DNA of 64,000 nt from positions 35,199-99,198 of the forward strand of contig JAJAPZ010000004.1 of the NCBI GenBank assembly GCA_020523905.1. Reading direction: 5' to 3'. The stretch comes from Candidatus Obscuribacterium magneticum. Lineage in GTDB: Bacteria; Elusimicrobiota; Elusimicrobia; F11. Shown here piece by piece: positions 13,569 to 27,244 of the stretch. The translations under genes were made by a program, and so were the position numbers. Under the pieces are notes generated by a model, which searched no databases, was not told the DNA's origin, and worked only from the letters and a program-made list of their open reading frames with translations. How positions within the stretch are numbered: the stretch's first letter is position 1; the number at the start of each line of letters is the position of its first letter.

Positions 13569-13605
13569 TATGTCTCCAACGAATCTTTGCCGATTTAAAG
13601 GATGC

Positions 13606-13673
13606 TCTCCCCGCGAAGGCGGGGAGCCAGGCCGTGAACACCGGACTGGATCCCCGCCTTCGCGGGGATGACG
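13606..13673. repeat. Dispersed palindromic repeat between macA and macB ATPase gene (left arm)
   Basis: CTCCCCGCGAAGGCGGGGAG facing ATCCCCGCCTTCGCGGGGAT, separated by ~30 nt. Same family as 35091, 49261, 53698 and 61569. Confidence 0.85.
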
Positions 13674-13702
13674 AATGTTGAGGCATTTCCACACATTACT
13701 TT

Positions 13703-14572
13703 ATGTCCTTGATCGAACTTAAAAACATCAACCGTTCCTATCGGGTGGGGGGAAGCGAACTCCGTGTCCTAAAGGATATAACGCTGGATATCCAGGAAGG
13801 GGAGTTTGTGGCGATCATGGGGCCTTCGGGCTCCGGCAAGTCGACGCTCATGCAAATCCTGGGCCTCTTGGACCGCCCCACCAAAGGCAGCTACCGTCTC
13901 CTCGGCCACGATGTCTCACGCTTGACGGACGATGAAGGGGCGGCCCTCCGTTCCCGGACGATCGGCTTTATCTTCCAAATGTTTAACCTCCTTCCCCGGA
14001 CAACAACGTTGGATAACGTCATCCTTCCTTTGGTGTATTCCGGCGAGTCCCACCGGAAAGAGCGCGCTCTCGAACTGTTGAAAAAAGTCGGGTTGGAGGA
14101 CCGGACGACACACCGGCCGAACGAGCTCTCGGGCGGCCAGCAGCAGCGTGTGGCCATCGCCCGGGCTTTGGTCAACCAGCCCCGCATCATCTTTGCCGAC
14201 GAACCCACGGGAAATCTGGCCTCTGAGCAATCAAAGGAAATTATGGGATACCTCGAAGAACTCCACCAAAGCGGCATTACCGTCATTATGGTTACCCACG
14301 ATCCCGATATCGCCAAGCACGCGAAGAGGATCATCCACCTCAAAGACGGTTGTGTCGTGGGGGATGAGGGAAGGGGTCAAGTCGCGACATGCGACACGCC
14401 GCGGCGTGTCGCATGTCGCGACTTGACCCCTTCCCTCATCCCCCACGACACAACCGTCTTTGAGGTGGATGATCCTCTTCGCGTGCTTGGCGATATCGGG
14501 ATCGTGGGTAACCATAATGACGGTAATGCCGCTTTGGTGGAGTTCTTCGAGGTATCCCATAATTTCCTTTGA
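13703..14572 (+). CDS. MacB/LolD-type ABC ATPase, 3' end chimeric at palindrome axis (left-arm copy)
   Basis: Residues 1 to about 223 are a normal lipoprotein/macrolide-exporter-type ATPase (Walker A GPSGSGKST, signature LSGGQQQRVAIARAL, Walker B FADEPTGNL). From about 14373 the frame runs into the hairpin repeat and past the axis at 14401.5, so the last ~57 residues are antisense of the gene's own 3' part and not a natural C-terminus. The MacB-type permease expected next is absent because the sequence folds back. See the mirror copy 14231-15100. Confidence 0.85.
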   Translation: MSLIELKNINRSYRVGGSELRVLKDITLDIQEGEFVAIMGPSGSGKSTLMQILGLLDRPTKGSYRLLGHDVSRLTDDEGAALRSRTIGFIFQMFNLLPRTTTLDNVILPLVYSGESHRKERALELLKKVGLEDRTTHRPNELSGGQQQRVAIARALVNQPRIIFADEPTGNLASEQSKEIMGYLEELHQSGITVIMVTHDPDIAKHAKRIIHLKDGCVVGDEGRGQVATCDTPRRVACRDLTPSLIPHDTTVFEVDDPLRVLGDIGIVGNHNDGNAALVEFFEVSHNFL

Positions 14573-15100
14573 TTGCTCAGAGGCCAGATTTCCCGTGGGT
14601 TCGTCGGCAAAGATGATGCGGGGCTGGTTGACCAAAGCCCGGGCGATGGCCACACGCTGCTGCTGGCCGCCCGAGAGCTCGTTCGGCCGGTGTGTCGTCC
14701 GGTCCTCCAACCCGACTTTTTTCAACAGTTCGAGAGCGCGCTCTTTCCGGTGGGACTCGCCGGAATACACCAAAGGAAGGATGACGTTATCCAACGTTGT
14801 TGTCCGGGGAAGGAGGTTAAACATTTGGAAGATAAAGCCGATCGTCCGGGAACGGAGGGCCGCCCCTTCATCGTCCGTCAAGCGTGAGACATCGTGGCCG
14901 AGGAGACGGTAGCTGCCTTTGGTGGGGCGGTCCAAGAGGCCCAGGATTTGCATGAGCGTCGACTTGCCGGAGCCCGAAGGCCCCATGATCGCCACAAACT
15001 CCCCTTCCTGGATATCCAGCGTTATATCCTTTAGGACACGGAGTTCGCTTCCCCCCACCCGATAGGAACGGTTGATGTTTTTAAGTTCGATCAAGGACAT
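14231..15100 (-). CDS. MacB/LolD-type ABC ATPase, 3' end chimeric at palindrome axis (right-arm copy)
   Basis: Cytoplasmic nucleotide-binding subunit of a MacB/LolD-type transporter. Visible in order: Walker A GPSGSGKST near residue 40, Q-loop region FIFQMFNLLP, signature LSGGQQQRVAIARAL, Walker B IIFADEPTGNL and H-loop MVTHDPD. Such ATPases end near 225-250 residues, shortly after RIIHLKDG, so only bases 15100 to about 14431 are trustworthy; the rest is hairpin and antisense. It follows the adaptor gene 134 bp downstream with a palindromic repeat between. TolC-MacA-ATPase order indicates a tripartite efflux pump whose permease gene has been lost from view at the fold-back. Confidence 0.87.
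   Translation of the reverse strand: MSLIELKNINRSYRVGGSELRVLKDITLDIQEGEFVAIMGPSGSGKSTLMQILGLLDRPTKGSYRLLGHDVSRLTDDEGAALRSRTIGFIFQMFNLLPRTTTLDNVILPLVYSGESHRKERALELLKKVGLEDRTTHRPNELSGGQQQRVAIARALVNQPRIIFADEPTGNLASEQSKEIMGYLEELHQSGITVIMVTHDPDIAKHAKRIIHLKDGCVVGDEGRGQVATCDTPRRVACRDLTPSLIPHDTTVFEVDDPLRVLGDIGIVGNHNDGNAALVEFFEVSHNFL
14373..14430. repeat. 58-bp hairpin repeat at the axis of the giant palindrome
   Basis: GGGGTCAAGTCGCGACATGC.. reads inward from both sides to a CGCCG|CGGCG centre. The first 24 bases of each arm equal the arms of the hairpin at 5819-5910, which has a real 40-nt loop, so this was probably a member of that family just after the ATPase gene. A perfectly self-complementary stretch like this is a natural place for an assembler, polymerase or read to fold back. 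Confidence 0.9.
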
Positions 15101-15129
15101 AAAGTAATGTGTGGAAATGCCTCAACATT

Positions 15130-15197
15130 CGTCATCCCCGCGAAGGCGGGGATCCAGTCCGGTGTTCACGGCCTGGCTCCCCGCCTTCGCGGGGAGA
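15130..15197. repeat. Dispersed palindromic repeat between macA and macB ATPase gene (right arm)
   Basis: Mirror of 13606-13673: GGGGATGACGAATG-side arm and CTCCCCGCCTTCGCGGGGAG-side arm of the GCGAAGGCGGGG family. Intercistronic, possibly transcribed as a hairpin within the efflux operon mRNA. Confidence 0.85.
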
Positions 15198-15234
15198 GCA
15201 TCCTTTAAATCGGCAAAGATTCGTTGGAGACATA

Positions 15235-16266
15235 TCATTGGGGACGTTGGCCACCCTGCCCCTGCCGGGTGGAGCCTTGGCCCGTTGGCTGTTGGTTACT
15301 TCCGCTTCGGGGCCGCCCCCCCATGATGAGCGGGCTTGAGGCGCCGGCCGACTGGGGCACATAACGTTTGGAAAAAATATAAACCGATTCGCCGGCGTTC
15401 AAACCGGAGACAATTTCCGTGGTCTCGCCGTTTTCGATGCCGGTGGTGACGTCGCGGGGAACCGGCTTCCCGTCGGGCCCCTCCACCATGACCCGTTTTC
15501 CTCCGGATCGATTGTTGCTGATGGCCAGGCTCGGCACCAAGACGGCATTCTCCCGCTTTTCAATAATCAAACTCACGTCGGCTGTCATCTGCGAACGGAA
15601 AAAGGGAGGTACACGGGCAGGCTCAATTTTCACATCGTAGGTGATGACGTTGGACACATTTTTCCCTTCATACAAAATATTGAAAACGCGGCCGTCGATG
15701 CTTTGTCCGGGGTAGGCGTCCAAGGTAATGCGCGCCGGCATGCCGATGTGCACGAGACCGATGTCGGCTTCGTCGACGTTGGCGACAACGATCAGCCTAT
15801 CGGAAAGCGCGTAGAGAACGATCGACAAGTCCACCGTCTGCCCCACGACGACATTGCGCAGGATGACGACACCGGACAAAGGAGCGATGATCGGCGTCGG
15901 TTTATACGTGTCTTCCCACCGTTTGAGTTCGTCCAATCCCTTGGCCCGGGCGGCATCCAGGATGGCCGCCCGGTCGCTCGAACTCATCCATGCCATGATT
16001 TCGCCGGCTTTCACGTTTTCTCCTTCATCAACCAGAAGCTTTTCAATACGTCCCTGGATGGGGGGTTTTATTTCGACCCGATTCAAGGGAGAGACCTCGC
16101 CCGTGGCTTCCACCGTCTCTTCGATGGGGCCTTCCGTGGCCGCGACCAAACGACGCATTTCAGCGCGTTCGTTTTTCACATCTTTTTTATGAACAATCCA
16201 AAAAGAAAAGCCGCCGGCGATCAGCGCGGCCATGACAATCCATACAAACCGTTTTTTTCTTTTCAT
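15235..16266 (-). CDS. macA: MacA/HlyD-type periplasmic adaptor of tripartite efflux pump
   Basis: 343-residue membrane-fusion protein linking an inner-membrane ABC pump to the TolC-type channel. One N-terminal membrane anchor (about residues 7-23), then IQGRIEKLLVDEGENVKAG, the first half of the lipoyl/barrel-sandwich domain, and the second half around IIAPLSGVVILRNVVVGQTV. Only ~35 residues separate the two halves, so the alpha-helical hairpin is very short compared with E. coli MacA. Beta-barrel and membrane-proximal domains follow, and the C-terminus is a low-complexity Gly/Gln/Arg tail. The start at 16266 overlaps the tolC stop (ATGA). The likely partner pump is MacB-like, judged from the next gene. 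The substrate is not evident; metal or envelope stress is suggested by the divergent sigma-factor operon. Confidence 0.88.
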   Translation of the reverse strand: MKRKKRFVWIVMAALIAGGFSFWIVHKKDVKNERAEMRRLVAATEGPIEETVEATGEVSPLNRVEIKPPIQGRIEKLLVDEGENVKAGEIMAWMSSSDRAAILDAARAKGLDELKRWEDTYKPTPIIAPLSGVVILRNVVVGQTVDLSIVLYALSDRLIVVANVDEADIGLVHIGMPARITLDAYPGQSIDGRVFNILYEGKNVSNVITYDVKIEPARVPPFFRSQMTADVSLIIEKRENAVLVPSLAISNNRSGGKRVMVEGPDGKPVPRDVTTGIENGETTEIVSGLNAGESVYIFSKRYVPQSAGASSPLIMGGRPRSGSNQQPTGQGSTRQGQGGQRPQ

Positions 16267-17555
16267 TTCTCCTCCAAAGGTTTCCCGAGAGCCTGTTCCC
16301 ACTGGGCTTCGGCGACCAGCGCATCATGCGCCGATTGAATGGCACTTTTCTCAGAGTTGACAAAATCGGTCACGGCCAATTCCCAATCCTCAAAAGAGAT
16401 AAGGCCGCTGGTGTAGCGAACGTGGGCCTCCTTGTTCCTCTGCTGGCCCGCCTCCAGAAATTGCTTCTGGACCTGGACCTGATCGATCCCGTCGGCCAGA
16501 TGGGCCCAACCGGATTCGAGGTTCGAGCGAACCTGGTTGCGGGTGGAACGCAGGTTTTCTGCCGCCTGTTCCAGATTCCGGCGGGCGGCGGAGGCCGCGT
16601 AATAAACGGAGGTGATGCCGCCTCCAAAAAGCCTGTAACTCAAGCCGATGGAAGCGTTCCATTGATAGGTGTCGTTCGGAAATTCGTCTTTGCCATTGAC
16701 GCTTCGCGAGTATTGACCGGAGAGGAACGGCCACAACTGGCTCCGGGCCGACTGCAAACCGGCCCTGGCGATTTCCAGGGCTGCTTCAAGCTGGGCCACC
16801 GGAGGGGTTTGATCCACCAGGAGGGATGTGTTGGGAAGTTCCGGCAGGGGAGCTGTGGCCAGAGTTCCGGTGGCGGTCACGGCGGCGAACTCATCCAAGC
16901 CCAGTTGGCGGCCGAGGTCCTGTTGAGACGAACGCATATCGCGATGCGCACTCGCCAGATCGGCTTGTGCTTGGCGGAGTTCCGCCTGGGCTCTCAACAT
17001 ATTTCCTTTGGACTCGCGGCCGGATTCGTAGCTGAGAGTGACCATTTTGGAATTGTCCATGCGCAGATCCAAAATCTTTTCCGCCACCCGGACCTTTTCC
17101 TGGGCGAAAAGGAGATCGGCAAAGGCTTGTTTTAAGGAAAACCGCAGGTTGGCAGAGGCAATCCGCACACTGGCCTCGGCTTGTCTTAAGGAAGCGGAAG
17201 CGGACCGGATGGAGGCGTTGGTTGTCGGATTGAAGAAATTCATGCTGGCGGTCCCTTGGGCCCCCCAGCGTGAATCGGGATTGTGTGAATCCGAATCGCT
17301 GTACGTATTGGAAAGAGTGATTTGAGGGGAATACCCGTTAAAACTGCCGTAATAACTGGCTTTTGAAGCCGCCAGATTTTTCTGAGCAGCCCGGAGATCC
17401 GGGTTTTTCTGCGACGCGATGAGAACGCAGTCCGCCCACGTCAAAGGACTTTTCTGTTCCTCCGCCCCCCACACAACAGGCACAAGAACCATGAATATCA
17501 ATACAACGCTAGAGCGGCGGACACGATGAATCCAATGGGTCAATTTATTCTTCAT
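16263..17555 (-). CDS. TolC-family outer-membrane efflux channel
   Basis: 430-residue outer-membrane/periplasmic channel protein (OEP family). A cleavable leader ends near VVWGAEEQ. The mature protein opens with LTWADCVLIASQKNPDLRAA, the usual start of TolC-type repeats, and has long Ala/Gln-rich amphipathic helices interrupted by beta-strand segments such as YSPQITLSNTYSDS and ASIGLSYRLFGGG. It heads the operon tolC-macA-macB ATPase and is read divergently from the ECF sigma operon. An ECF-type promoter ends 10 bp upstream of the ATG, so leader and promoter are very close. Family assignment is secure, transported substrate unknown. Confidence 0.9.
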   Translation of the reverse strand: MKNKLTHWIHRVRRSSVVLIFMVLVPVVWGAEEQKSPLTWADCVLIASQKNPDLRAAQKNLAASKASYYGSFNGYSPQITLSNTYSDSDSHNPDSRWGAQGTASMNFFNPTTNASIRSASASLRQAEASVRIASANLRFSLKQAFADLLFAQEKVRVAEKILDLRMDNSKMVTLSYESGRESKGNMLRAQAELRQAQADLASAHRDMRSSQQDLGRQLGLDEFAAVTATGTLATAPLPELPNTSLLVDQTPPVAQLEAALEIARAGLQSARSQLWPFLSGQYSRSVNGKDEFPNDTYQWNASIGLSYRLFGGGITSVYYAASAARRNLEQAAENLRSTRNQVRSNLESGWAHLADGIDQVQVQKQFLEAGQQRNKEAHVRYTSGLISFEDWELAVTDFVNSEKSAIQSAHDALVAEAQWEQALGKPLEEK

Positions 17556-17565
17556 AAGATACTTA

Positions 17566-17594
17566 TTAGACGGTTGTTCGTTCCCAAAAGTGTC
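17566..17594 (-). promoter_or_regulatory. ECF-type promoter for tolC-macA-macB operon (right arm)
   Basis: Minus strand: GACACTT (17588-17594), 16-nt spacer, GTCTAA (17566-17571). The -35 resembles GGAACTT and the -10 TCTAA of RpoE/ECF promoters. The identical layout on the other strand at 17608-17636 supports it. The -10 is very close to the tolC ATG (17555), implying a short leader. Confidence 0.65.
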
Positions 17595-17607
17595 GCATTA
17601 TTATTCA

Positions 17608-17636
17608 GACACTTTTTCAGGTCTTCCAGCGTCTAT
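17608..17636 (+). promoter_or_regulatory. ECF-type autoregulatory promoter of the sigma-factor operon (right arm)
   Basis: GACACTT (17608-17614), 16-nt spacer, GTCTAT (17631-17636), 68 bp before the first gene. Together with the divergent promoter it builds a 9-bp inverted repeat with a 13-nt centre, so one sigma factor could drive both directions. Inference from sequence pattern only. Confidence 0.65.
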
Positions 17637-17704
17637 AGGGTTGGAGGCACCCGATATTGTAGCATCTCATTGACGATAGAAATTCAAAAAGGAGTCTAAA
17701 TCCC

Positions 17705-18088
17705 ATGAAAAACATCACTATGATAACAACCTTTCTCTTGCTCACATCTCAAATTTCCGTTCCCCTAACGGCGGAACGCCCGGGCAATCCCGGCGCGCAT
17801 AAATTTGAGGAAAAGACGCAGGAAAGAACCAAGAAAAGACTCGACATGTTGACGAAGAAACTTCGCCTTTCGCGCGATCAACAAAAGGTGGTTAAAGCCG
17901 CCTGGGAAAGCCAACGTACAAAAACAGATGAATTGCGGAAAGATTTCGCAGAAAAAATGAAAACGATCCGGGAAGACACGGACAAACAAATCACCGCCGC
18001 TCTCAACAATGACCAAAAAACCAAGTACACGGAGATGAAGGCGGAGCGGAAGGAAAAAATACAAGAATTCGGTCGCCAGAAGAAATGA
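17705..18088 (+). CDS. Spy/CpxP-like periplasmic protein, first gene of ECF operon
   Basis: 127-residue protein with a signal peptide ending near PLTAERPG and a highly charged helical body (KKLRLSRDQQKVVKAAWESQ, then ITAALNNDQKTKYTEMKAERK). The second segment is an LTxxQ-like motif of the Spy/CpxP/CnrX superfamily of periplasmic chaperones and metal or stress sensors. A good ribosome site (AAAGGAG) precedes the ATG, and the sigma-factor gene starts 3 bp after the stop. By analogy with CnrX in cobalt/nickel resistance it could titrate or sense metal or misfolded protein and signal to the anti-sigma factor. No metal-ligand His/Cys set is obvious, so a chaperone role is equally possible. Confidence 0.8.
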   Translation: MKNITMITTFLLLTSQISVPLTAERPGNPGAHKFEEKTQERTKKRLDMLTKKLRLSRDQQKVVKAAWESQRTKTDELRKDFAEKMKTIREDTDKQITAALNNDQKTKYTEMKAERKEKIQEFGRQKK

Positions 18089-18091
18089 ATA

Positions 18092-18664
18092 ATGACTGAT
18101 GATGACAAGATTGTTCGGGCCGTCCTCTCGGGAAACCGGGATTCTTATGCCACCTTGGTCCGCCGGTATCAAGCGCAGGTCCTGAGGTCTTGCCTCGTCC
18201 TTCTGGCGAATCCCGTTGAGGCCGAAGATGCCGCCCAAGATGTATTTATCAAGGCGTATGAATCACTCGCGGGATTTCACGGCGAGTCGTCCTTTCCCAC
18301 CTGGCTTTATCGTATTACGCACAACCATTGCATGGATCTGCTGCGCAAAAAAAAGCGCCAAAAGACGGACTCGCTGGACAACCTCGTAGAAGACCGCCAC
18401 GATACAGGCGAGAAACTCCTCGACGTCAATCGGACAAAGCCTTCCAGCCAGGATTATCAGGACCTTATCAATGAGGTTATGTCCACACTAAGCCCGGACT
18501 ACAAGGAGATTCTGGCTTTGCGAGAGGTGGGGGGCTTCACGTATGAAGAAATGGCGTCCTATTTAAGATGCACGCTGGACGCGGTAAAAGCGCGTTTGCG
18601 CCGGGCCCGGCAGGAGCTCAGGGAAAAGGCCCGACACTTTTTAGGGTCCAAGATCGTCCAATAG
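18092..18664 (+). CDS. ECF-family RNA polymerase sigma factor
   Basis: 190-residue extracytoplasmic-function sigma-70 factor. Region 2 (residues ~20-90) includes LVRRYQAQVLRSCLVLL, the core-binding DAAQDVFIKAYESL and the -10-recognition stretch FPTWLYRITHNHCMDLLRKK. Region 4 (residues ~130-185) contains LSPDYKEILALREVGGFTYE and a helix-turn-helix with TLDAVKARLRRARQELR. The linker is acidic and Asp/Thr rich. The zinc-finger anti-sigma gene starts 17 bp downstream, the classical arrangement. Its own operon and the divergent tolC operon both carry GACACTT-N16-GTCTA promoters, the probable target sequence. The flanking Spy/CnrX-like genes suggest a periplasmic metal or envelope-stress input. Confidence 0.95.
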   Translation: MTDDDKIVRAVLSGNRDSYATLVRRYQAQVLRSCLVLLANPVEAEDAAQDVFIKAYESLAGFHGESSFPTWLYRITHNHCMDLLRKKKRQKTDSLDNLVEDRHDTGEKLLDVNRTKPSSQDYQDLINEVMSTLSPDYKEILALREVGGFTYEEMASYLRCTLDAVKARLRRARQELREKARHFLGSKIVQ

Positions 18665-18681
18665 AAGACAGGAGAAAGCGT

Positions 18682-19149
18682 ATGGATCACGATCAAATTA
18701 AAGACAAGCTGGACGCTTATGACGACAATGAGTTGTCGATCGGAGAGCGCCACGAGGTGACCGCTCATCTGGAGGCCTGCGCCGAATGCCGGACAAATGC
18801 AGAAGAATGGAAGAAAACCACGGATATGTTTTTTAAGACCCCTCAACTTCCCTCTTCTGAAGAGTTCGTCCACCGCGTGATGGCTCGGATTGAACGTCTC
18901 GAACCCGCCGACGTCCGAGAGCAAGGAGGGCTTCGTCGGGCCTTGAACCGCTGGTTTTATCCGGCCTTTGTTGGGGCGGCCGTGGCTGGGTTCTTATTTA
19001 TCATGACGGTTCCCATGCCGGAACCGAAAGCGCCATTAGACTCGCTCCTTTTTGAATACAAAGCTGAAAATATACCCTCCGATTGGCTCGTCTCGGCCGA
19101 TGTCGCCCGTGAAGACCAAATCCTAAGGTACGTTATGGGGGAAATATGA
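18682..19149 (+). CDS. Zinc-finger (ZAS-type) membrane anti-sigma factor
   Basis: 155 residues. The N-terminal cytoplasmic domain has the ZAS signature His29-x3-Cys33-x2-Cys36 (HLEACAECR), which folds against ECF sigma factors. A single membrane segment spans about residues 91-110, followed by a ~45-residue periplasmic tail. The start at 18682 has AGGAG upstream; a longer in-frame extension to 18568 would overlap the sigma gene and lacks support. The stop overlaps the ATG of the next Spy/CnrX-like gene, so the two are probably translationally coupled and may act as a sensor pair. Release of the sigma factor could be by conformational change, as in CnrYXH, or by proteolysis; the sequence does not decide. 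Confidence 0.9.
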   Translation: MDHDQIKDKLDAYDDNELSIGERHEVTAHLEACAECRTNAEEWKKTTDMFFKTPQLPSSEEFVHRVMARIERLEPADVREQGGLRRALNRWFYPAFVGAAVAGFLFIMTVPMPEPKAPLDSLLFEYKAENIPSDWLVSADVAREDQILRYVMGEI

Positions 19150-19523
19150 AATTAAATCTTAAACAAATGGTCATACCGCTTTTGGTGGGACTCTTGATCG
19201 GAGGCCTTCTGGGGCGCTTTGCATCACCCTGGCATTATTTCAAACGAATACCGATGGGGAATCACGAAGATCGGATTCTGAAGCGATTTAGTTCCAAACT
19301 GGGACTGAACCCGCAGCAAAAGGAAGAAATCAAGGCGATCCTAACCTTGAGCCGCAAGCAGACGGAAAAATTGCTGACCGACATCCGACCCAAATTTGAA
19401 GCCATCCGGAAGGCAACGGCGGCGGAAATCCGAACAAAGCTGACGCCCGAACAACAGGCCAAGTTCGACAAAATGGAGAAAAAATTCCAACACCGCCGGA
19501 AGGGGCCTCATCCACCTCCCTGA
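19146..19523 (+). CDS. Membrane-anchored Spy/CnrX-like periplasmic metal-sensor protein
   Basis: 125 residues. An uncleaved-looking N-terminal membrane segment (MVIPLLVGLLIGGLLGRF), then a periplasmic four-helix-type domain with LGLNPQQKEEIKAILTLSRK and KLTPEQQAKFDKMEKKF, the two LTxxQ-like repeats of the heavy-metal-resistance (CnrX/ZraP-related) family. The tail HRRKGPHPPP is His/Pro rich. ATGA overlap with the anti-sigma gene makes it the best candidate for the direct sensor partner of the anti-sigma factor, as CnrX is for CnrY. The metal is not deducible from sequence. It is distinct from the other Spy-like gene at 17705, which is soluble and lacks the anchor. Confidence 0.83.
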   Translation: MKLNLKQMVIPLLVGLLIGGLLGRFASPWHYFKRIPMGNHEDRILKRFSSKLGLNPQQKEEIKAILTLSRKQTEKLLTDIRPKFEAIRKATAAEIRTKLTPEQQAKFDKMEKKFQHRRKGPHPPP

Positions 19524-19528
19524 ATGAA

Positions 19529-19792
19529 ATGAAGAAAAAGCTCTTTCTTGTTCTTTTGGCGGCCCTTTTTACGGCCACCTTCATCGAGCACTCTCTGTCC
19601 CATGAGAATTATGGAAAAGACAACTGCCAAATCTGCCGGCTGGGACAATCCACCGCTCCACCGCAAGCAGCGGATGATGTCAAGCTGTTTCTCCCTTGGA
19701 GCCAACTATTCATCCCTTCCACTCCTCTCATCAGCTTTGATATTTCTTATCCTTCCGCCCAACCAAGAGCCCCTCCGGCCGTCCCTGCATAG
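19529..19792 (+). CDS. Small exported Cys/His protein of the metal locus
   Basis: 87 residues, 5 bp after the sensor gene. A hydrophobic leader (LFLVLLAALFTATF) is followed by a compact HSLSHENYGKDNCQICRLGQ segment with three possible metal ligands (two His) and a CQIC pair. The rest is Pro/Ala rich and ends RAPPAVPA. Small proteins with a leader, a His/Cys knot and an R-x-PPA tail, often grouped as DUF2946-like, accompany metal transport genes in other bacteria; that is recollection of a pattern, not a search. I cannot assign a function, but a periplasmic metal-binding or chaperone peptide fits its place between the sensor and the His-rich porin. Confidence 0.65.
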   Translation: MKKKLFLVLLAALFTATFIEHSLSHENYGKDNCQICRLGQSTAPPQAADDVKLFLPWSQLFIPSTPLISFDISYPSAQPRAPPAVPA

Positions 19793-19895
19793 ACCTGCAC
19801 AATAAAACCGAGAGATTAATCTGTTGCGCTTGAGATCCGATTGGATCCGGCACGTGACGACCTAAAAAGGATTATGCATTCAAAGGAGGCTCTGT

Positions 19896-21062
19896 ATGTT
19901 TTTAAGAATATTTTCGGTTGTTTTAACGATGCTCATTGTTGGTTCCTGTTTGTACGCCCAAACCGCCGCGCCGGTCAATCCTTCAGGCCCGACTCCGCCC
20001 CAGGGGATGAGAGGAACGCCTGTCAATCTTCCCGATATCAGCGTGGTTGGAGTGCTCAGCGGTTATGTGAGCGACGACAAATCCGACGGCGAACGGAATC
20101 AGTTTGTCGTCGATGAAATTGAGACGGCGTTTCAGGGATATATTTATCCTGAGATGCGGGCGGACGTTTTTCTCGCGCTGCACCGTCACGAAGGCGAGGT
20201 CGAGGCGGAGATTTGCGAAGCGAAGGTGGGGTTCCTGAATTTGGCGCCGGGTGTCGCTGGAGAAGTGGGAAAAATTCACGTGAACTTCGGGAAACTCAAC
20301 AAAGTCCACACCCACACTCGTCCTGTGATTGATCAACCGACTGTTCTGACCAATTTCTTCGGCGAACATGGATTGATCGGCCAGGGCGGGACGCTGAGCT
20401 ATCTTCTCCCCGTTCCATTCTTCCTGCAAATTGAAGGCGGTGCCTGGCGCGCAGACCCCCACCATCATCACACCGAGTATGAAACTGTGGAAGTCCCCGA
20501 TGGAAGCGGCGGAACGGTGGAGGTCTTAAAAGAAAAGGCGCATGAAGATACCGAGTATTCCTTTGGCGATGAGTTTTACACGGCGCGGGCGAAGACATCC
20601 TTTGCGCTCCTGTCAAAATCAGAGATCGAGATTGGATCGAGTTTCGCCCATGGCAAGGGGGCGCACTTCGAAGAGCACAAAGACGTTGCCACCGTCGTTG
20701 GAGCGGACCTTACCTTCCGGCTTTGGCCGGACGCCTATCGGCGCTGGACATTTCAGAATGAATGGCTGCGCTTGAAGCGCAGGGGGCCGGTCGGAACCCT
20801 GACACGGGACGGCTTCTACAGCTTCCTCAGCTACCGGCTCAACAAACACGTGGATTTCGGCGGACGCTGGGATTACGCGGAAAACGCCTTCCCCACTAAA
20901 ATTATTGAACGGGCGATTTCTGGAATCTTAAGCTACCATCTCACAGAGACGTCAGCATTGCGCGTCCAATATAAAAGGCGCCGGGGGGTAGGCGAGACCA
21001 TTAACGAAGGCTGGACTCAGCTCGTCTTCGGCTTGGGCCCTCACAGCCACGAGTTGGATTAA
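19896..21062 (+). CDS. His-rich outer-membrane beta-barrel protein, probable metal-uptake porin
   Basis: 388 residues with a signal peptide (leader ends near LYAQTAAP). A Pro-rich linker precedes a predicted beta barrel with many short alternating strands (ADVFLALHRHEG, TSFALLSKSEIEIGS, YSFLSYRLNKHVDFGGRW). A central extracellular-type loop at about residues 185-225 is rich in ligands (DPHHHHTEYE, then KEKAHEDTEY), and other His residues are scattered (HTHTRP, HGKGAHFEEHKD). It ends with a typical barrel strand. A strong ribosome site (AAAGGAGG) precedes the ATG, and it lies 11 bp before the znuA-like gene. I infer outer-membrane passage or capture of zinc or a similar metal. No TonB box is visible, so an energised receptor is unlikely. 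Confidence 0.8.
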   Translation: MFLRIFSVVLTMLIVGSCLYAQTAAPVNPSGPTPPQGMRGTPVNLPDISVVGVLSGYVSDDKSDGERNQFVVDEIETAFQGYIYPEMRADVFLALHRHEGEVEAEICEAKVGFLNLAPGVAGEVGKIHVNFGKLNKVHTHTRPVIDQPTVLTNFFGEHGLIGQGGTLSYLLPVPFFLQIEGGAWRADPHHHHTEYETVEVPDGSGGTVEVLKEKAHEDTEYSFGDEFYTARAKTSFALLSKSEIEIGSSFAHGKGAHFEEHKDVATVVGADLTFRLWPDAYRRWTFQNEWLRLKRRGPVGTLTRDGFYSFLSYRLNKHVDFGGRWDYAENAFPTKIIERAISGILSYHLTETSALRVQYKRRRGVGETINEGWTQLVFGLGPHSHELD

Positions 21063-21073
21063 GAGAGGCTGCC

Positions 21074-21976
21074 ATGATCTCTAAAATAATCGTCAGCGCT
21101 TTATTGATGTTTTCTTTAAGCGGTCTCCACGCCGCCGTGCGCGTGGTGACCAGCTCACAAGACTTGGAGTCGATCGCCAAGATGATCGGAGGCGATCAAG
21201 TTGTCGTGGAAAGCCTGGCGGCCGGCGATTTCGATCTCCACCTCATCGAGCCCAGACCCAGCATGGTGTTCAAGGTGAAACAAGCCGACATGATGGTCCG
21301 CGTCGGCATGGATTTGGACATGTGGATGGACAGTCTCATCGCCGCCTCTCGCAATAAGAATGTGGTGTTCGGTGCCCCCGGCTATGTCGATGTTTCTGCC
21401 GGAATACCGAAACTCCAGGTGCCCGAAGGGAAGGTGGACGCAAGCATGGGGGACATCCATATTTTCGGAAACCCTCACTTCTGGCTCGATCCCGTGAATG
21501 GCCTCAACATGGCCGAAACCATTCTGAAGGGGTTCATCCGGGTTTCGCCGGAGAACGAGGCCGTTTTTCGCCGGAATTACGCCGCATTTATCAAAACACT
21601 CGGTGAAAAAATCGGCGAGTGGGATAAAAAAATGGAGCCCTTCGCGGGAAAAACGCTTGTGACCTATCATAATTCATGGATCTACTTCTCGCAGCGGTTT
21701 CGCTTGGATATTGTTGGCAACGTCGAGCCAAAACCGGGGCTCCCCCCAACTCCCTCCCACCTCGCGAAGCTGATCGAGACGATGAAAGCCGAGGAGGCGG
21801 CGGTGATTCTGGTGGACACCTTCTTTCCCTTACAGGGCCCCCGGAAAGTGGCGGAGAAAACGGGCGCCTCCATTCTTATCGTCCCGAGCTCCGTCGGCGG
21901 AAAACCGAACGTCAAAAATTATTTTGATCTCTTTGATGCGATCATCAATGACCTCGTTTCAGCATTTAATAAATAG
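21074..21976 (+). CDS. Zn/Mn-type ABC transporter periplasmic binding protein, ZnuA-like
   Basis: 300-residue cluster A-I (TroA/ZnuA) substrate-binding protein with a signal peptide (about residues 1-20). Predicted ligands by motif: His56 in FDLHLIEPRPS, His135 in NPHFWLDP, His199 in TYHNSWIYF and Asp248 in LVDTFF. The long backbone helix around residues 145-185 and the KPGLPPTPSHLAKLI start of the second lobe are typical. It lacks the His-rich flexible loop of enteric ZnuA, a role the upstream barrel protein may take over. The permease follows after 9 bp. Zinc is the best guess; Mn, Fe or Co/Ni relatives exist in the same family. Confidence 0.9.
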   Translation: MISKIIVSALLMFSLSGLHAAVRVVTSSQDLESIAKMIGGDQVVVESLAAGDFDLHLIEPRPSMVFKVKQADMMVRVGMDLDMWMDSLIAASRNKNVVFGAPGYVDVSAGIPKLQVPEGKVDASMGDIHIFGNPHFWLDPVNGLNMAETILKGFIRVSPENEAVFRRNYAAFIKTLGEKIGEWDKKMEPFAGKTLVTYHNSWIYFSQRFRLDIVGNVEPKPGLPPTPSHLAKLIETMKAEEAAVILVDTFFPLQGPRKVAEKTGASILIVPSSVGGKPNVKNYFDLFDAIINDLVSAFNK

Positions 21977-21985
21977 GAGAACTTT

Positions 21986-22810
21986 ATGCTCGATCTTATG
22001 ATACTGCCTTTTCTGGCGTGCCTGATCCTCACGGGCATCCACGCTTACTTGGGCGTCCACGTTATTGAACGGGGCGTCATATTTGTCGATCTGGCGCTCG
22101 CTCAGATTGCCGCATTGGGTAGCGTCGCCGCCATCGGATGGGGTTTTTCACTTCATACGCCGGCGGCCTATCTGATGTCCCTCGGCTTCACTTTTGTTGG
22201 GGCCGCCATTTTTTCCTTCACGCGACTTAAAGAGAGCGATATCCCGCAGGAAGCCGTCATTGGAATTGTCTACGTCGTCTCGGCCGCGGCGGCGGTGCTT
22301 GTCTTAGACCGCATTCCATCGGAAGCCCAGCACATCAAGGATATGCTCGTGGGGAACATCCTTTTTGTCGACTGGCCTCACATCTGGCGGACGTTTCTTC
22401 TCTACAGCGGGATTGGCGTTTTGCATTTTCTGTTCCGAAAGCGCTTCATCCTCATTTCCTGCCAACCCGAAGAAGCCGAAAAGAAAGGGATCTCCATCCG
22501 CTGGTGGGATTTCCTTTTCTATATGTCCTTCGGAGTGGTTGTGACCAGCTCGGTCGATCTGGCCGGGGTGCTTCTGGTGTTTTCCTTCCTTATTATTCCG
22601 GCCGTTTGCGCCATTCTTTTCACCAAAAATTTCGGGAAAAGGCTGACCATCGGCTGGATATTGGGAGCAGCGACGAGCCTCGCCGGCGTCTACGCCTCTG
22701 CCGCCTGGGACTTTCCGACCGGCGCCGCCGTTGTTTGCGCCTTTGGGTTGCTCGCGATTTGTTGCGGAATCGTGAAGAGCCTTTTGAAGCAATTGGCCGT
22801 AATGACGTAG
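21986..22810 (+). CDS. Zn/Mn-type ABC transporter permease, ZnuB-like
   Basis: 274 residues, about eight membrane helices, ABC-3 family. Characteristic segments are HAYLGVHVIERGVIFVDLALAQ near the N-terminus and DLAGVLLVFSFLIIPA near residue 195. It partners the ZnuA-like protein encoded just upstream. No ATPase gene follows: the next element is tRNA-Gln on the opposite strand. The pair must therefore borrow an ATPase encoded elsewhere. The seven preceding genes on this strand may form one operon with it under the ECF promoter. Confidence 0.9.
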   Translation: MLDLMILPFLACLILTGIHAYLGVHVIERGVIFVDLALAQIAALGSVAAIGWGFSLHTPAAYLMSLGFTFVGAAIFSFTRLKESDIPQEAVIGIVYVVSAAAAVLVLDRIPSEAQHIKDMLVGNILFVDWPHIWRTFLLYSGIGVLHFLFRKRFILISCQPEEAEKKGISIRWWDFLFYMSFGVVVTSSVDLAGVLLVFSFLIIPAVCAILFTKNFGKRLTIGWILGAATSLAGVYASAAWDFPTGAAVVCAFGLLAICCGIVKSLLKQLAVMT

Positions 22811-22815
22811 CCTAA

Positions 22816-22887
22816 CTGGGGCGGATGGATTCGAACCATCGCATGCGGGCTCCAAAGGCCCGTGCCTTACCACTTGGCTACGCCCCA
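22816..22887 (-). tRNA. tRNA-Gln (anticodon UUG), right-arm copy
   Basis: Same 72-nt gene as 5916-5987, in native context downstream of ispE. Acceptor TGGGGCG/CGCCCCA, anticodon loop CTTTGGA, no encoded CCA. Its 3' end lies 5 bp from the end of the convergent permease gene. Confidence 0.95.
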
Positions 22888-22892
22888 ACGAA

Positions 22893-22984
22893 GGGGTCAA
22901 GTCGCGACATGCGACATTTTTTCTAAAACAGCGGTTCACCGAGATCTATTCCTGCCGGAATGTCGCATGTCGCGACTTGACCCC
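22893..22984. repeat. Hairpin repeat, 26-bp perfect arms (right arm)
   Basis: Mirror of 5819-5910, between ispE and tRNA-Gln. A 40-nt loop separates the arms. Sequence style resembles REP elements linked to Y1 (RAYT) transposases; no transposase gene is in this window. Confidence 0.85.
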
Positions 22985-23032
22985 ATACTTTATAAAAATT
23001 GGGCGATGGGAGAAACGGGCAGGCTCTCTGGC

Positions 23033-23890
23033 CTAACGTGTATGGAGCAAAAAAACATTCCAAGGACGAGGCGCCAGCTTCTTCGCTATCCAACTCCCCT
23101 CAGCGCGGTTACCCACAAACCCGAAAACACACGAGCCCGAACCCGACAGCATCACCGAACGGCATCCCAACCCGATCAACTCCGACCGGGCCCTCGCCAC
23201 CGCCGGGAATCGCGGTAAAACGACGGGTTCAAAATCGTTCCGAGGACCCTTTTTAATGACGGGTCGGGGTCGATTCTTTTTTCGTTCTTCATCAAGCCAC
23301 TGGTAAGCCTTCGCTGTTGAAACAGAAACGCGTGGGTAAATCAGGATGAGCCACTTTTTCGAGCCCCGCGGGAGAGTCCTTAGGTTTTCTCCGATCCCCT
23401 TCCCCTCCGCTTTTCCCCCTTTTAGGAAGAAAGGAACATCGGCGCCCAAGCGCCGCGCGCAATCGAAGAGAACCGGAGGGACTTGCTTCCGATACCGTTG
23501 GACCGGTTTTCGCTGACCGGTCCAGAGAAGCCACCCTCCCCAAAGGGCTGCCGCCGCATCAGAAGAAGCCCCCCCCAAACCCCCGCCGACGGGAATGCGC
23601 TTCTTCAAACGAACCTCCATCCCCGATTTGAGCCTGAGCTTCTTCCGCAATAACGCCAATGCTTTAACAATCAAATTGCTCCGCCCTTTCGGGACGCGGC
23701 CACCCGAGGTGATCAAACGAAGGCGGGACGGCAGACGCTGGAACGTGAGATCATCATGAAGGGAAATTTCCTGGAAGAGGGTTTGGAGAGAGTGATAGCC
23801 GTCCGCGCGCCGGCGTCCGATGCGAAGATGAAGGTTGACCTTCGCGCACGCCGGCAGGGTCAAAACGACCTTAAGGCGTCCCTTTTTCAT
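23033..23890 (-). CDS. ispE: 4-diphosphocytidyl-2-C-methyl-D-erythritol kinase IspE
   Basis: 285-residue GHMP-family kinase that phosphorylates CDP-ME in the MEP (non-mevalonate) isoprenoid pathway. AKVNLHLRIG at residues 16-25 holds the conserved Lys/Asn, and VGGGLGGASSDAAAAL (about 101-116) is the ATP-binding glycine loop. LGADVPFFLKGG and the C-terminal MLSGSGSCVFGF are also typical. The start at 23890 lies inside the 3' end of the TPR gene (20-bp overlap); the longer frame to 24118 is only overlap with that gene. Last gene of the gatB-to-ispE operon. Confidence 0.93.
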   Translation of the reverse strand: MKKGRLKVVLTLPACAKVNLHLRIGRRRADGYHSLQTLFQEISLHDDLTFQRLPSRLRLITSGGRVPKGRSNLIVKALALLRKKLRLKSGMEVRLKKRIPVGGGLGGASSDAAAALWGGWLLWTGQRKPVQRYRKQVPPVLFDCARRLGADVPFFLKGGKAEGKGIGENLRTLPRGSKKWLILIYPRVSVSTAKAYQWLDEERKKNRPRPVIKKGPRNDFEPVVLPRFPAVARARSELIGLGCRSVMLSGSGSCVFGFVGNRAEGSWIAKKLAPRPWNVFLLHTR

Positions 23891-26051
23891 CTTTTTTCGT
23901 CGAACCAAAAGAGAAAACGGGGCTGACGAATTCCAGGCGGATGCGGAAATTTGTATTGAGATCCACCCACTCCATGACAGGCGGCCAGGGTGACGGCTTT
24001 GACCGGCGGGAGGGTGAAAAGCGCAAGGCATCGGGCTTTTCCTCCGACCATACGATCTCCTGAAGCGCCCCTTGTGACTTTTTGAAGGAGAGGGCCGTGC
24101 CCAGCCAACGCGCGACAAGAAGCCCTTTCTTCTCCTGAATCTCCATCCCTCCTTCCGATTTTTGGAAGGCCCGGAAGAGCTCGGCGGAAAAAACGCTTTC
24201 CAACCGCTCCGCCGCCCTCTTCACATACGGCTCAACCGACTGAAGCAGGGGGTGGATGGCGCCCACCTTCGCCGGTTCTCCCGAAAGCTTTTCAAGCCGC
24301 AGGAGGGGCCCCGACAAGGGTCCCGGTAGTTCGACGATCAACGGCCCCTTCTGGTCATAACTCATCTGGGCCTGGCATGTAAAATAGGGTTTTTTCTCGC
24401 CGATCTTGACGACCAGAAGGCTCCGGACCGACTGGACCTTCGAAAATTGATGGGCCGACCGCTTTAAATAAAGGCTCAACTTGTCCTTATTGTCGAGCTT
24501 CTCAAGGGCCTTATCGATCCGGGCCGGGACTTTTTTCTGGCCGGGCTGAAGGCGGAGGGACTCGTCCCAAGTGAGGACCGCGGCGATCCCCTCTCCCCGC
24601 GCCGCCTGCACATCCCCCAAATGCTCGTAAATCAGGGGGTCTTTCACCTGGAGAATCGCTTGCTGTAAAAAGTCCTCCGCCTTCTGGAACTTGCCCATCC
24701 GGTAATACACCCAGCCCATGGAATCCAAATAGGCGCCGTTCGCCGGATCCAAGGCGATGGCGTTCATGACGAGTTGCTCGGCCGCCTCCAGATTCACGTT
24801 CCGATCCGCGTACGTATAACCAAGATAATTGAGAGCGACCGGAAAATCCGGCTTCAAGGCGATGGCTTTTTTTAGCGCCTCCTCCGCGAGGGCGTGCCGC
24901 TTCATCCGGTCGTAAACGGTGGCCAAATGGAAATACACCTCGGGATCCTGCGGCAAGAGGACCAACAGTTTCTGCAGCGTCTTTTCGGCCTGGGGGAACT
25001 GCTTGTCTTCCTCATAGGACAGGGACAGGTAATTTAAAAAGTCCGCGTTTTCCGGTTCTTCCGCCGACAGCTTTTTCAATATCGCGATCGACTTTTTGTT
25101 TTGCCGGGCCTGCGAATAATAATAGGAAAGCCGAAGGAGGACGCCCGTGTCAGGGGCTTTGACGGCCACCTGTTCCAAAAGTTTGATGGCTTCGCCCCAC
25201 TCCCCCTTTTGTTCATGAAGGAGCGCCAGCCAAAAGCTGGCGGAAGCGCTCTCCGGCGAGATCATCTGGGCCTTGCTGAAGGCCTCATACGCCTCCGTCA
25301 TTTCATTGCCCCGATAACGCAGCTCGCCGATCCGAAGGAGGATGGGCAAATTGTTCGGATCCTGCGCCAACACAGCCTCATAATGCCGGATGGCGGTTGA
25401 GGTGTCTTCGTGGACCTCCGCAATCTGTGCCAAGGCCAGGTGGGCCTTGAGCGAATCAGGGGCCCATTCCAGCGCCTTCTCCCAGGTCTCCTTCGCCTTT
25501 TCCACCTCTCCCAAACTCTGATGAAGTTGAGCGACCCTCTCCCGGATATCGACCTCGCCGGGATGGCGGACCAGGTACTCGTTATAAAGACCAATGGCCC
25601 GACGGGGATCGCGCGGGGTCACCGCCATGGCCAGGTTCATCAAGGGCTCCGCTTCATTCGGAGCCAGCTCGACGGCCTTGCCCAACCGCTCCTCGGCCTT
25701 GTCGGAAACGCCGGCCGACCAGTAGATCTGGCCGGCCAGGATATAGAGCTTGTAATTTCCGGGATTGAGCTCGATGGCCTTTTCGGCGGCCGCCATGGCG
25801 TCAAGCGAGCGGCCCTGGCGGAACGCCAACTCCGCCGCCGTTTTATAGAGGGTGTCGCTCGCGGGCGCCAGGGCAATGGCTTTGTTCAACTCTTCCTGAG
25901 CGAACGCCAGATTCCCCTGGCTTTCATAGAGAAGGGCCTTCAGATAAAACTGGTAGGCTTCCTGAGGACTGCTCATCGTCGCCGCCGTCACGGTCGACAG
26001 CGACAAAAAGGCGATCCCCAACGCAAAGAAGGCCATTCGAAACCGGCTCAT
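23871..26051 (-). CDS. Exported tetratricopeptide-repeat protein
   Basis: 726 residues. A signal peptide (about residues 1-24, MAFFALGIAFLSLSTVTA) directs it to the periplasm or outer membrane. Residues ~30-530 are roughly a dozen 34-residue TPR units (for example AEKAIELNPGNYKLYILAGQ and ALKKAIALKPDFPVALNYLG) that normally form a protein-binding superhelix. The last ~190 residues are mixed alpha/beta (MEIQEKKGLLVARWLGTAL) and end in beta-like strands; I do not recognise the fold, though position and pattern recall outer-membrane lipoprotein-handling TPR proteins. The ATG at 26051 overlaps the rimI stop, and the 3' end overlaps ispE. Confidence 0.9.
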   Translation of the reverse strand: MSRFRMAFFALGIAFLSLSTVTAATMSSPQEAYQFYLKALLYESQGNLAFAQEELNKAIALAPASDTLYKTAAELAFRQGRSLDAMAAAEKAIELNPGNYKLYILAGQIYWSAGVSDKAEERLGKAVELAPNEAEPLMNLAMAVTPRDPRRAIGLYNEYLVRHPGEVDIRERVAQLHQSLGEVEKAKETWEKALEWAPDSLKAHLALAQIAEVHEDTSTAIRHYEAVLAQDPNNLPILLRIGELRYRGNEMTEAYEAFSKAQMISPESASASFWLALLHEQKGEWGEAIKLLEQVAVKAPDTGVLLRLSYYYSQARQNKKSIAILKKLSAEEPENADFLNYLSLSYEEDKQFPQAEKTLQKLLVLLPQDPEVYFHLATVYDRMKRHALAEEALKKAIALKPDFPVALNYLGYTYADRNVNLEAAEQLVMNAIALDPANGAYLDSMGWVYYRMGKFQKAEDFLQQAILQVKDPLIYEHLGDVQAARGEGIAAVLTWDESLRLQPGQKKVPARIDKALEKLDNKDKLSLYLKRSAHQFSKVQSVRSLLVVKIGEKKPYFTCQAQMSYDQKGPLIVELPGPLSGPLLRLEKLSGEPAKVGAIHPLLQSVEPYVKRAAERLESVFSAELFRAFQKSEGGMEIQEKKGLLVARWLGTALSFKKSQGALQEIVWSEEKPDALRFSPSRRSKPSPWPPVMEWVDLNTNFRIRLEFVSPVFSFGSTKKDEKGTP

Positions 26052-26491
26052 AACTCTTTTTTCATGATCCACGAACTTTCGCCGCCGGGGTATCCCCTCG
26101 GCCGGCGGTCCACGATTTCAAAACCGACTTTCCGGTAGAGCTGGGCCGCCGGCTCGTTACCCGGATCGACATCGAGGAAAAGGACCCGCGCGCCGTTTGA
26201 CTTTGACCACAGGCTCATCTTATTAAGAAGCTCCATCCCCCGGCCCTGGCGCCGGTGTCCTGGCACGATCATCAAATTGAGCAGGACCGCCTCCTCGCCG
26301 ACAATTTGAACGACACCGAAGCCGTAAATCCCTCTGTCACCCTCCCATACCAAGGGGGTCACATGATCGGAATGCAGGGTCTCCAGGAAATTATTCCTTG
26401 ACCAAGGATACGGGCGCTCCCCCTTCTCCATGGCGGAGAAAACCTCGGCCTCGTCGGGTCGCATGCGTCTCAATTCGTCTAAAACAATCAT
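26048..26491 (-). CDS. rimI: RimI-type GNAT N-acetyltransferase
   Basis: 147 residues. GNAT fold with beta-strand VLLNLMIVPGHRRQGRG (acetyl-CoA pyrophosphate loop R/Q-x-x-G-x-G/A) and a FLDVDPGNEPAAQLYRKVGF stretch characteristic of RimI, where Asn-x-x-A-x-x-L-Y supports catalysis. RimI acetylates the N-terminal Ala of ribosomal protein S18. In many bacteria it is clustered with tsaB/tsaE, as here, and a role near t6A synthesis has been proposed. The start at 26491 overlaps the tsaB stop (ATGA), indicating translational coupling; the longer frame upstream is overlap only. Confidence 0.9.
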   Translation of the reverse strand: MIVLDELRRMRPDEAEVFSAMEKGERPYPWSRNNFLETLHSDHVTPLVWEGDRGIYGFGVVQIVGEEAVLLNLMIVPGHRRQGRGMELLNKMSLWSKSNGARVLFLDVDPGNEPAAQLYRKVGFEIVDRRPRGYPGGESSWIMKKEL

Positions 26492-27231
26492 TTTTCCCCT
26501 CGTTCCTTCTCGGCCCAGCTCGGCTGCAGATACAACGGCACCACACGATGATAAGAGAAGGTCTTCGGCGTCGGCCGGGCCGCAAACTTTTGGATTCCAA
26601 TCTCGGCAATCTTCACCGGATGGGGGGCGGCCGGCACATTCCGCCACTCAACGTCTCCCCACCGGCCCGCCACCGTGTTCCCCTCCTGACGGTTGCTTAA
26701 AACAACAATCGGATTCTTCCGTTGGCTTGAAACCAGTCCGGCCAATAGATGCCGAAACTCGTCCTCTTTCTTCCACGTCGGCGGGATGACGGATTGTAGC
26801 ATCTTTGCGGAAGGCCCCGCCCGGTAGCCCGCGTAATACAGCTCACCCGCCAGGGCGGGAATGCAGGCGAGAATCAATGTTTTCTTCCGACCCCCCAACT
26901 CGGCTTCCCGAGCGAGCGCCTCCAAACTCGACACGCCCACGACAGGGACTTTTAATCCCTGCCCCAGAGCGCGCGCGGTGGCCACACCGACTCGCACCCC
27001 CGTAAAACTCCCCGGTCCGATGTCGACCGACACCAAACTCAGTTGTGCCTTCTTGAGGCGGGCCTCTTTAAGCATCTTATCGAGAACGGGAATCAAGTGC
27101 TCCGATTGCTGACTCAACCCCGGAGAAAAATGGCTCTTGATGAGACGCCTGGCTCCCGTCCGGACGTTAAATGAAAAAAGGGCCAGGCCCAGATAGGCAC
27201 TGCTTGTTTCAATTGATAGGCAATAACCCAT
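26488..27231 (-). CDS. tsaB: tRNA threonylcarbamoyladenosine biosynthesis protein TsaB
   Basis: About 247 residues. ASKHA-fold non-catalytic partner of TsaD; with TsaE it completes t6A37 of ANN-decoding tRNAs. Recognised by MGYCLSIETSSAYLGLALF at the N-terminus and VDIGPGSFTGVRVGVATAR at about residues 70-90. Frames extending to 27315 translate the palindromic repeat (giving the telltale GIPAFAGMT), so I start at 27231; 27237 is a second possible ATG. No clear Shine-Dalgarno site precedes either, perhaps because repeat insertion replaced the native leader. Confidence 0.92.
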   Translation of the reverse strand: MGYCLSIETSSAYLGLALFSFNVRTGARRLIKSHFSPGLSQQSEHLIPVLDKMLKEARLKKAQLSLVSVDIGPGSFTGVRVGVATARALGQGLKVPVVGVSSLEALAREAELGGRKKTLILACIPALAGELYYAGYRAGPSAKMLQSVIPPTWKKEDEFRHLLAGLVSSQRKNPIVVLSNRQEGNTVAGRWGDVEWRNVPAAPHPVKIAEIGIQKFAARPTPKTFSYHRVVPLYLQPSWAEKERGEK

Positions 27232-27244
27232 TGTCATGATAATA

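Follow-up and report, generated by a model that had tools for sequence, protein, structure and literature searches.

The window considered here, a stretch of 64,000 nucleotides from Candidatus Obscuribacterium magneticum (positions 35,199 to 99,198 of contig JAJAPZ010000004.1), carries at 17705-22810 of its forward strand a run of eight genes encoding, in order, a Spy-like protein, an extracytoplasmic function (ECF) sigma factor, an anti-sigma factor, a CnrX-like sensor, a small Cys/His peptide, a porin-like barrel, ZnuA and ZnuB. We consider it somewhat probable that two old modules are juxtaposed in this run, namely an envelope-stress-type ECF circuit (module A, the first four genes) and a metal cassette with an ATPase-less ZnuB (module B, the last four). 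As to ZnuB itself, we hold it an evenly balanced question whether one branch of the metal ATP-binding cassette (ABC) importers, with members among bins or isolates of four phyla, has lost its ATPase permanently and now acts as a metal permease that is fed by the binding protein and does not depend on ATP. ATP hydrolysis is the defining feature of ABC importers; if true, such an ATPase-free ABC-3 clade would show how an importer can be converted to secondary or passive transport, and would make the annotation "zinc ABC transporter" questionable for genes of this kind, for which residues suited to a test are named below. For a group that has been little studied, the sigma part in turn provides a likely promoter legible in the sequence, together with a predicted regulon. 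An initial annotation had described the run as a single CnrYXH-like metal-sensing operon with ZnuAB lacking an ATPase; the gene order that it gave is real by open reading frames (ORFs) and Pfam matches, though mirrored by a second copy at 5993-11098, and overall its observation was partly confirmed and its interpretation partly supported.

The ZnuAB cassette and its permease clade

Module B encodes, on the + strand, a small secreted Cys/His peptide (19529-19792; C..C, with RAPP near its end), a porin-like outer membrane barrel with conserved His residues (19896-21062), a ZnuA-type periplasmic binding protein (21074-21976; PF01297, 6.4e-52) and a ZnuB-type permease (21986-22810; PF00950, 2.1e-34), and no ATPase. 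These identities stand as first annotated, the peptide and the barrel being without a Pfam family. The structure predicted for the barrel (predicted local distance difference test, pLDDT, 80.3; 18 strands) matches general porins (OprP, 2o4v, E 2.8e-10), and the modelled fold is that of a general porin. The best NCBIfam matches, all below cut-off, are AztC for ZnuA and the anchored-repeat and AztB permeases for ZnuB.

Among 64 loci examined (24 named loci found with the window's ZnuA, and 40 stretches fetched from among, but not exhausting, the PF00950 matches), two kinds of cassette occur, according to whether a ZnuC lies between ZnuA and ZnuB or is missing. Stretches from relatives in the class (Elusimicrobia; n=39) comprise 18 in which ZnuA and ZnuB stand without an ATPase, a porin being seen in 17 of these, and 20 with an ATPase, while locus L115 shows only a ZnuB of the ATPase-less type at a contig end. 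The 20 include L113, which was relabelled as ATPase-linked because its ATPase match shares the open frame of ZnuB (genome G091, 7117-9318, - strand), possibly a ZnuC-ZnuB fusion. Outside the class, ZnuA-ZnuB without an ATPase is found in 22 named loci. In 32 of the 53 loci where this could be tested, of either kind, the porin follows a small C..C ORF that begins with a hydrophobic stretch; in 31 of the 32, R[AGS]PP stands close to the end of the ORF. The Cys/His gene therefore belongs to the ZnuAB cassette. The genome studied here holds a second cassette, on contig C100, in the order Cys/His-porin-ZnuA-ZnuC-ZnuB. Such porin-ZnuA-ZnuC-ZnuB cassettes of the class share with the window the small C..C peptide, the porin and ZnuA before the permease; unlike the window, they include a ZnuC, retain the docking Asp (21/22) and have no His25/Asp35 pair (window numbering). 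No other conserved neighbour that might serve as a hidden energiser of the ATPase-less cassette was found, the next gene cluster occurring in 6 of 42 loci and in mixed orientation.

In a ZnuB tree of 62 sequences (the truncated L115 and L087 were left out, as was L076, judged to be the same contig as L094 and excluded from counts as well), the 41 ATPase-less sequences fall on one side of a single branch, supported at 100/94, against 21 ATPase-linked ones. The branch stays, at 100/96, when 30 canonical ABC-3 permeases are added (92 sequences). Besides sequences of the class, it includes Bacteroidota, Ignavibacteriota, one Pseudomonadales bin and a bin lacking a phylum name; L086, L068 and L063 form long branches whose placement is less sure. 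Judged from these sequences, ATPase-less ZnuAB is an old and widespread clade in several phyla, and not a feature peculiar to this operon. The absence of the ATPase might also be read as the decay of a former ZnuABC system of which these genes are remnants, which we regard as the least probable of the readings given here: the frames are open, the residues described below are kept in 41 of 41 readable sequences across phyla, and the losses form one clade and are not scattered.

Among ATPase-linked permeases, 21 of 22 have the coupling Asp, as do 30 of 30 canonical ones; of the ATPase-less sequences it is seen in 0 of 20 from Bacteroidota and Ignavibacteriota and in 7 of 20 from the class. With respect to the docking motif D...A...G, the class sequences keep Ala and Gly, the window's ZnuB has A and G without D, and the Bacteroidota-type sequences have lost the motif; on this alignment its decay appears full in the latter and partial in the class. 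In turn, a pair consisting of His25 and Asp35 occurs in 41 of 42 ATPase-less sequences, the other being truncated, and in none of the 22 porin-linked ATPase-carrying or 30 canonical sequences. A model of the ZnuB of L083 (Ginsengibacter hankyongi; pLDDT 80) matches PsaC (Z 29.1, root-mean-square deviation 3.4 over 263 residues) and shows three helical residues only in the docking stretch, where its confidence is low; the His/Asp pair is numbered His30 and Asp40 in this protein. The PsaC report (PMC11779740) gives Asp46 and His50 as coordinating manganese. These align to Leu36 and Gln40 in the window's ZnuB, and the PsaC-type ligands are present in the canonical sequences (D in 28/30, H in 30/30). 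The window's proteins thus resemble the ZnuABC/AztABC/PsaBC importers (cluster A-I) in their ZnuA and ZnuB families and, in the relative L083, in the PsaC fold; they differ from them in a cassette without an ATPase, a replaced docking Asp, the new His25/Asp35 pair and the absence of the PsaC ligands.

Possible coupling of ZnuB to an ATPase

Whether some other ATPase might serve the clade was examined in the carrier genomes. The 20 carriers in the class are this genome, those of the 18 ATPase-less loci, and G014 (L115). A ZnuC profile at 1e-45 finds nothing in 13 of these and a match in five; in the remaining two, this genome and G016, a ZnuC adjoins an ABC-3 permease. At 1e-33, where nearly all candidate ATPases were scored, three ZnuC control genomes gave 2.0e-49 to 6.3e-52. 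Among the 18 carriers that lack such a ZnuC, 12 show background only (best 5.1e-35 to 1.6e-41), and in the other six the best ATPase (6.7e-45 to 3.7e-59) always lies beside a FecCD permease (Pfam 4.1e-72 to 1.6e-90), which marks these as vitamin/siderophore-type systems. Completeness is 90% or more in ten of the 18. Beyond the class, 17 of the 18 carriers searched (of 22) have no ZnuC match at 1e-40, the cultured Ginsengibacter hankyongi included; in the eighteenth, L068, the match (2.9e-45) is FecCD-linked. The search for a ZnuC that the initial annotation proposed was thus successful in this genome, the gene lying on C100 between ZnuA and ZnuB of the second cassette; the annotated lack of an ATPase next to ZnuAB is supported.

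The main rival takes ZnuB for a normal ABC permease served in trans by a borrowed ATPase, the C100 ZnuC here and one of FecCD/BtuD-type or other systems in relatives. We regard this as possible and the less probable account. It draws on the ZnuC of C100, the docking-helix Ala and Gly kept throughout the class, and the well-scoring FecCD-adjacent ATPases of six class carriers and the L068 genome; against it stand the 18 of 20 class carriers without ZnuC beside an ABC-3 permease, the 18 outside carriers with no ZnuC-like match or a FecCD-linked one, the motif lost in Bacteroidota-type sequences together with the scant helix of the low-confidence L083 model, and the lack of an ATPase as a conserved neighbour of the cassette. 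We prefer ATP-independent passage, given that no ZnuC is seen in the majority of carriers and that the docking motif is lost from part of the clade. Several points weigh against this preference. Loss of the PsaC-type ligands, considered as a hallmark of the clade, was rejected since none of the 22 ATPase-carrying permeases linked to a porin has them either; the change therefore predates the loss of the ATPase and does not indicate it. The FecCD-linked ATPase of G017 (3.7e-59) scores above all ZnuC controls, and because some FecCD ATPases do so the verdict between the two rests on the neighbouring gene. Most carrier genomes are metagenome-assembled, with completeness figures covering the class carriers only, and the named loci were selected for similarity to the ZnuA of the window, a bias toward the ATPase-less clade. 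Last, the window's ZnuB keeps the docking Ala and Gly and C100 has a ZnuC, so that docking may take place in trans in this genome; for the window's own ZnuB, ATP independence and a borrowed ATPase cannot be told apart.

It is nevertheless reasonable to postulate how an ATP-independent module B would work. A divalent metal, to judge by homology zinc, would cross the outer membrane by way of the porin and be bound by ZnuA, and ZnuB would then carry it over the inner membrane with no ATPase dedicated to the task. The clade has apparently given up ABC-type coupling, acting probably as an ATP-independent permease or channel in which the invariant His/Asp pair may form part of the metal path. Solitary BioY, the S component of an ECF transporter, may offer a precedent for a component related to ABC systems that acts without partners; ZnuB, unlike that component, is a type II metal permease. 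We recognised no description of ZnuAB without ZnuC among the open-access papers listed. The ATP independence of ZnuB and zinc as its substrate are inferred here, as is the signal for module A, to which we now turn.

The sigma circuit, its sensor and its predicted promoter motif

Module A consists, on the + strand, of the Spy/CnrX-like periplasmic protein (17705-18088), the ECF sigma factor (18092-18664), whose sigma2 and sigma4 domains are both found by Pfam (Sigma70_r2 2.5e-19, r4_2 1.3e-13), a zf-HC2 zinc-finger anti-sigma factor (18682-19149; Pfam 2.2e-9) with a hydrophobic stretch readable by eye, and the CnrX-like sensor (19146-19523; Metal_resist, PF13801, 7.5e-8). The architecture proposed at the outset, an ECF sigma, a zinc-binding (ZAS) anti-sigma and a CnrX-fold sensor, is borne out by these matches. 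The assignment of the first gene as Spy-like is weaker, as it has no Pfam family above cut-off, and is favoured by a match (1.8e-8) to a profile built from two sensors. Divergent from these genes, on the - strand, lie a TolC-type outer membrane efflux protein (OEP; 16263-17555; PF02321, 9.6e-49), an HlyD/CusB-like membrane fusion protein (MFP; 15235-16266; Pfam) and a MacB/LolD-like ABC ATPase (14402-15100). The annotated divergent pump is present in these three parts and is cut at the centre of the palindrome described below, where its permease part is lost at the contig fold and the ATPase ORF runs on artificially to 14231.

The 149-bp divergent gap bears the sequence GACACTT-N15-CGTCTA on each strand, at 17567-17594 (-) on the pump side and at 17608-17635 (+) on the side of the Spy-sigma operon; each is a predicted sigma promoter for the genes on its side. 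Across the 2.89 Mb of the genome, the form GACACTT-N14-17-YGTCTA has 7 matches against 0 in the control, all at two sigma loci: two per arm of the window's contig C82 (two sites doubled by the palindrome) and three at contig C64. A one-mismatch scan gives 9 matches, a single one of them on C126, against 3 in the control. The C64 locus is a paralogue in which MFP, OEP and a small Spy-like gene diverge from sigma, anti-sigma and sensor genes, and nothing of the ZnuAB cassette is present there. Its third motif copy lies in the final codons of the sigma gene, where the window has an equivalent with one mismatch (18633-18660, +) and relatives, too, carry the motif.

The two-sensor profile, run over 98 genomes of the class, has members in 49, and 20 relatives' loci were fetched around its matches. 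All 20 have a sigma and a sensor match and 19 an anti-sigma match; OEP-MFP-MacB genes accompany the sigma genes in 14 of them, on the same strand in 13 and divergently in one, a family member (G002). In 22 loci (these 20, C64 and the window, the last if CGTCCA is allowed) the motif stands at the sigma 3' end in 16, in a looser form in four, and was not found in two. A form ending in YGTCTAA, which leaves out the window's Spy-side site, has 65 sites in 38 of the 98 genomes against 3 for the reversed control; 37 of these lie within 2.5 kb of a sensor-profile match (Spy-like included), and 33 upstream on the same strand. Motif and sensor are found together in 32 genomes, the motif only in 6, the sensor only in 17 and neither in 43 (Fisher p 9e-8, uncorrected for kinship).

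The motif found at the sigma 3' end also stands before other genes. From the 28 other sites, 20 regions with 21 sites were fetched, and a downstream ORF was seen in 19 of the 20 regions (none at L261, nor at the minus-strand site of L254). Of 18 downstream proteins scanned, the doubtful-looking ORFs of L259 being left out, six are LTXXQ/Spy-like (L255, L265, L267, L268, L269 and L270, four of them over cut-off), three are OEP (L256, L263, L266) and one HlyD-type (L273), two are anti-sigma factors (L260, L262) and one is a sigma factor (L258); the remaining five are a CsgG-like, a TPR and a TRL-like protein and two without a family (L257, L254, L272, L264, L271). On this showing the targets look like an envelope-stress-type regulon. 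BaeSR/Cpx-type envelope-stress regulons likewise target Spy-like chaperones and TolC-type efflux; unlike those two-component systems, module A would be driven by an ECF sigma. The region L254 (G002:C46) holds a second divergent motif pair (136-163 and 264-291), with the TPR protein on one side.

Two results argue against reading too much into the motif. At up to three mismatches the window has 12 matches against 8.68 in shuffles, which is chance level, and only the exact form is informative. Furthermore, 15 of the 16 intragenic copies lie in one reading frame, so that conservation of the protein explains part of the sigma 3' site; in L251 the motif is in another frame, and in L235 the sigma gene stops inside it. 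With these reservations we infer a promoter function for the motif. A sigma-dependent promoter within a sigma gene has been measured to drive the anti-sigma gene in the sigH-rshA locus of Corynebacterium glutamicum, as PMC3489674 describes it; the situation here is comparable, with a predicted promoter of different sequence. In the circuit that we propose, the CnrX/Spy-like sensor and the zf-HC2 anti-sigma would hold sigma inactive; once released, sigma would fire the divergent pair and raise both the Spy-sigma-anti-sigma-sensor operon and the TolC-MFP-MacB pump, while the extra promoter at the sigma 3' end, a weaker match in the window, would feed anti-sigma and sensor.

What releases sigma bears on the reading given at the outset, in which a single operon senses metal through the CnrX-like sensor and sets efflux (the pump) and uptake (ZnuAB) together. 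We find this doubtful. The PF13801 match of the sensor and the divergent promoter pair speak for it; in 22 aligned sensors, however, CnrX itself not among them, no column apart from the start Met is occupied by His, Cys or Met at a level of 60%, and "metal-sensing" is therefore unproven. CnrX-type metal sensing by this family is not supported by the sequences, and a search for solved structures related to the sensor gave none at E 0.1. CnrYXH of Cupriavidus metallidurans serves a resistance-nodulation-division pump and has a sensor with metal-binding residues. The window shares with it an ECF sigma, an anti-sigma and a Metal_resist-fold sensor in one operon, as judged by spacing; it differs in the zf-HC2 anti-sigma, the gene order, the MacB-type ABC pump and a sensor family without conserved His, Cys or Met. 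CnrY is placed in a separate anti-sigma class in the account of PMC8103513. The accompaniment of the sigma genes by OEP-MFP-MacB, and the predicted promoters of relatives before LTXXQ (Spy-like), efflux and anti-sigma genes, are likewise at odds with a unitary metal-sensing operon.

Junction of the modules and the palindromic contig

The sensor and the Cys/His gene are separated by 5 bp on the same strand, and no + strand terminator-like site was found in 18966-21540; for these reasons read-through into module B from the Spy promoter is plausible, and the same features would suit a single operon. Against the latter, neither the window scan nor the genome scan found the motif before the porin, the C64 paralogue and the 20 relatives' sigma loci have no adjoining ZnuAB, and the metal cassette elsewhere has no adjoining sigma. 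The check for the same gene order in relatives found a ZnuAB cassette directly beside sigma in this genome only, among the loci examined. It is because of this distribution that we take A and B as separate units, B standing 5 bp behind A in this one genome, where the two may be co-transcribed. A sigma-ZnuAB link in relatives was also considered and rejected: a sigma match occurs in the fetched flanks of 4 of 42 ATPase-less loci (L072, L077, L102, L118) and adjoins the cassette in none, sigma and sensor lying about 7 kb from ZnuB in G081 (L118/L245), and the sigma match of G089 (L102) lying about 3 kb away with no sensor match beside it.

The contig itself requires comment. By self-comparison of window and contig, positions 1-28802 form an exact palindrome without a spacer (p pairs with 28803-p, so that 1-14401 mirrors 14402-28802), and C82 (99,198 bp, or 2 x 49,599) is palindromic end to end with 0 mismatches, the part beyond the window (64001-99198) being an exact mirror of the remainder. 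The unique sequence is therefore window 14402-64000. We read the palindrome as an assembly fold-back, by which the operon and the pump each appear twice; other findings in the first 28.8 kb of the window are likewise mirrored pairs. That the adjacency of the modules or the lack of the ATPase is itself an artefact of this assembly seems to us very improbable. C82 is a fold-back, and C100 (L087) is faulty as well, its last 55 bases duplicating an inner stretch of the ZnuC gene and cutting ZnuB, which is an assembly fault; yet the sensor-Cys/His and ZnuA-ZnuB junctions lie inside one arm, thousands of bases from the centre, and ATPase-less ZnuA-ZnuB recurs in other genomes. The source bin (2.89 Mb in 137 contigs) is 71% complete and 13% contaminated, and doubling by the palindrome may have raised the latter figure.

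The centre of the palindrome (14373-14430) sits in a dispersed hairpin repeat, GGGGTCAAGTCGCGACATGCGACA, another copy of which lies at 22891-22983. A 24-mer of this repeat has 55 matches in the genome at up to two mismatches (control 0), mostly as head-to-head pairs with variable loops. Dispersed head-to-head hairpin repeats of this kind resemble the repetitive extragenic palindromic elements and bacterial interspersed mosaic elements (REP/BIME). Farther along the window, G+C falls to 0.37-0.42 in 38001-44000 against mostly 0.5-0.58 around it, with a weak Pfam match in two of six scanned ORFs, and this stretch is a possible acquired island. At 54757-63003, on the - strand, lies an ORF of 2748 amino acids with weak Pfam matches, of which the best is aldo/keto-reductase-like (3.2e-7).

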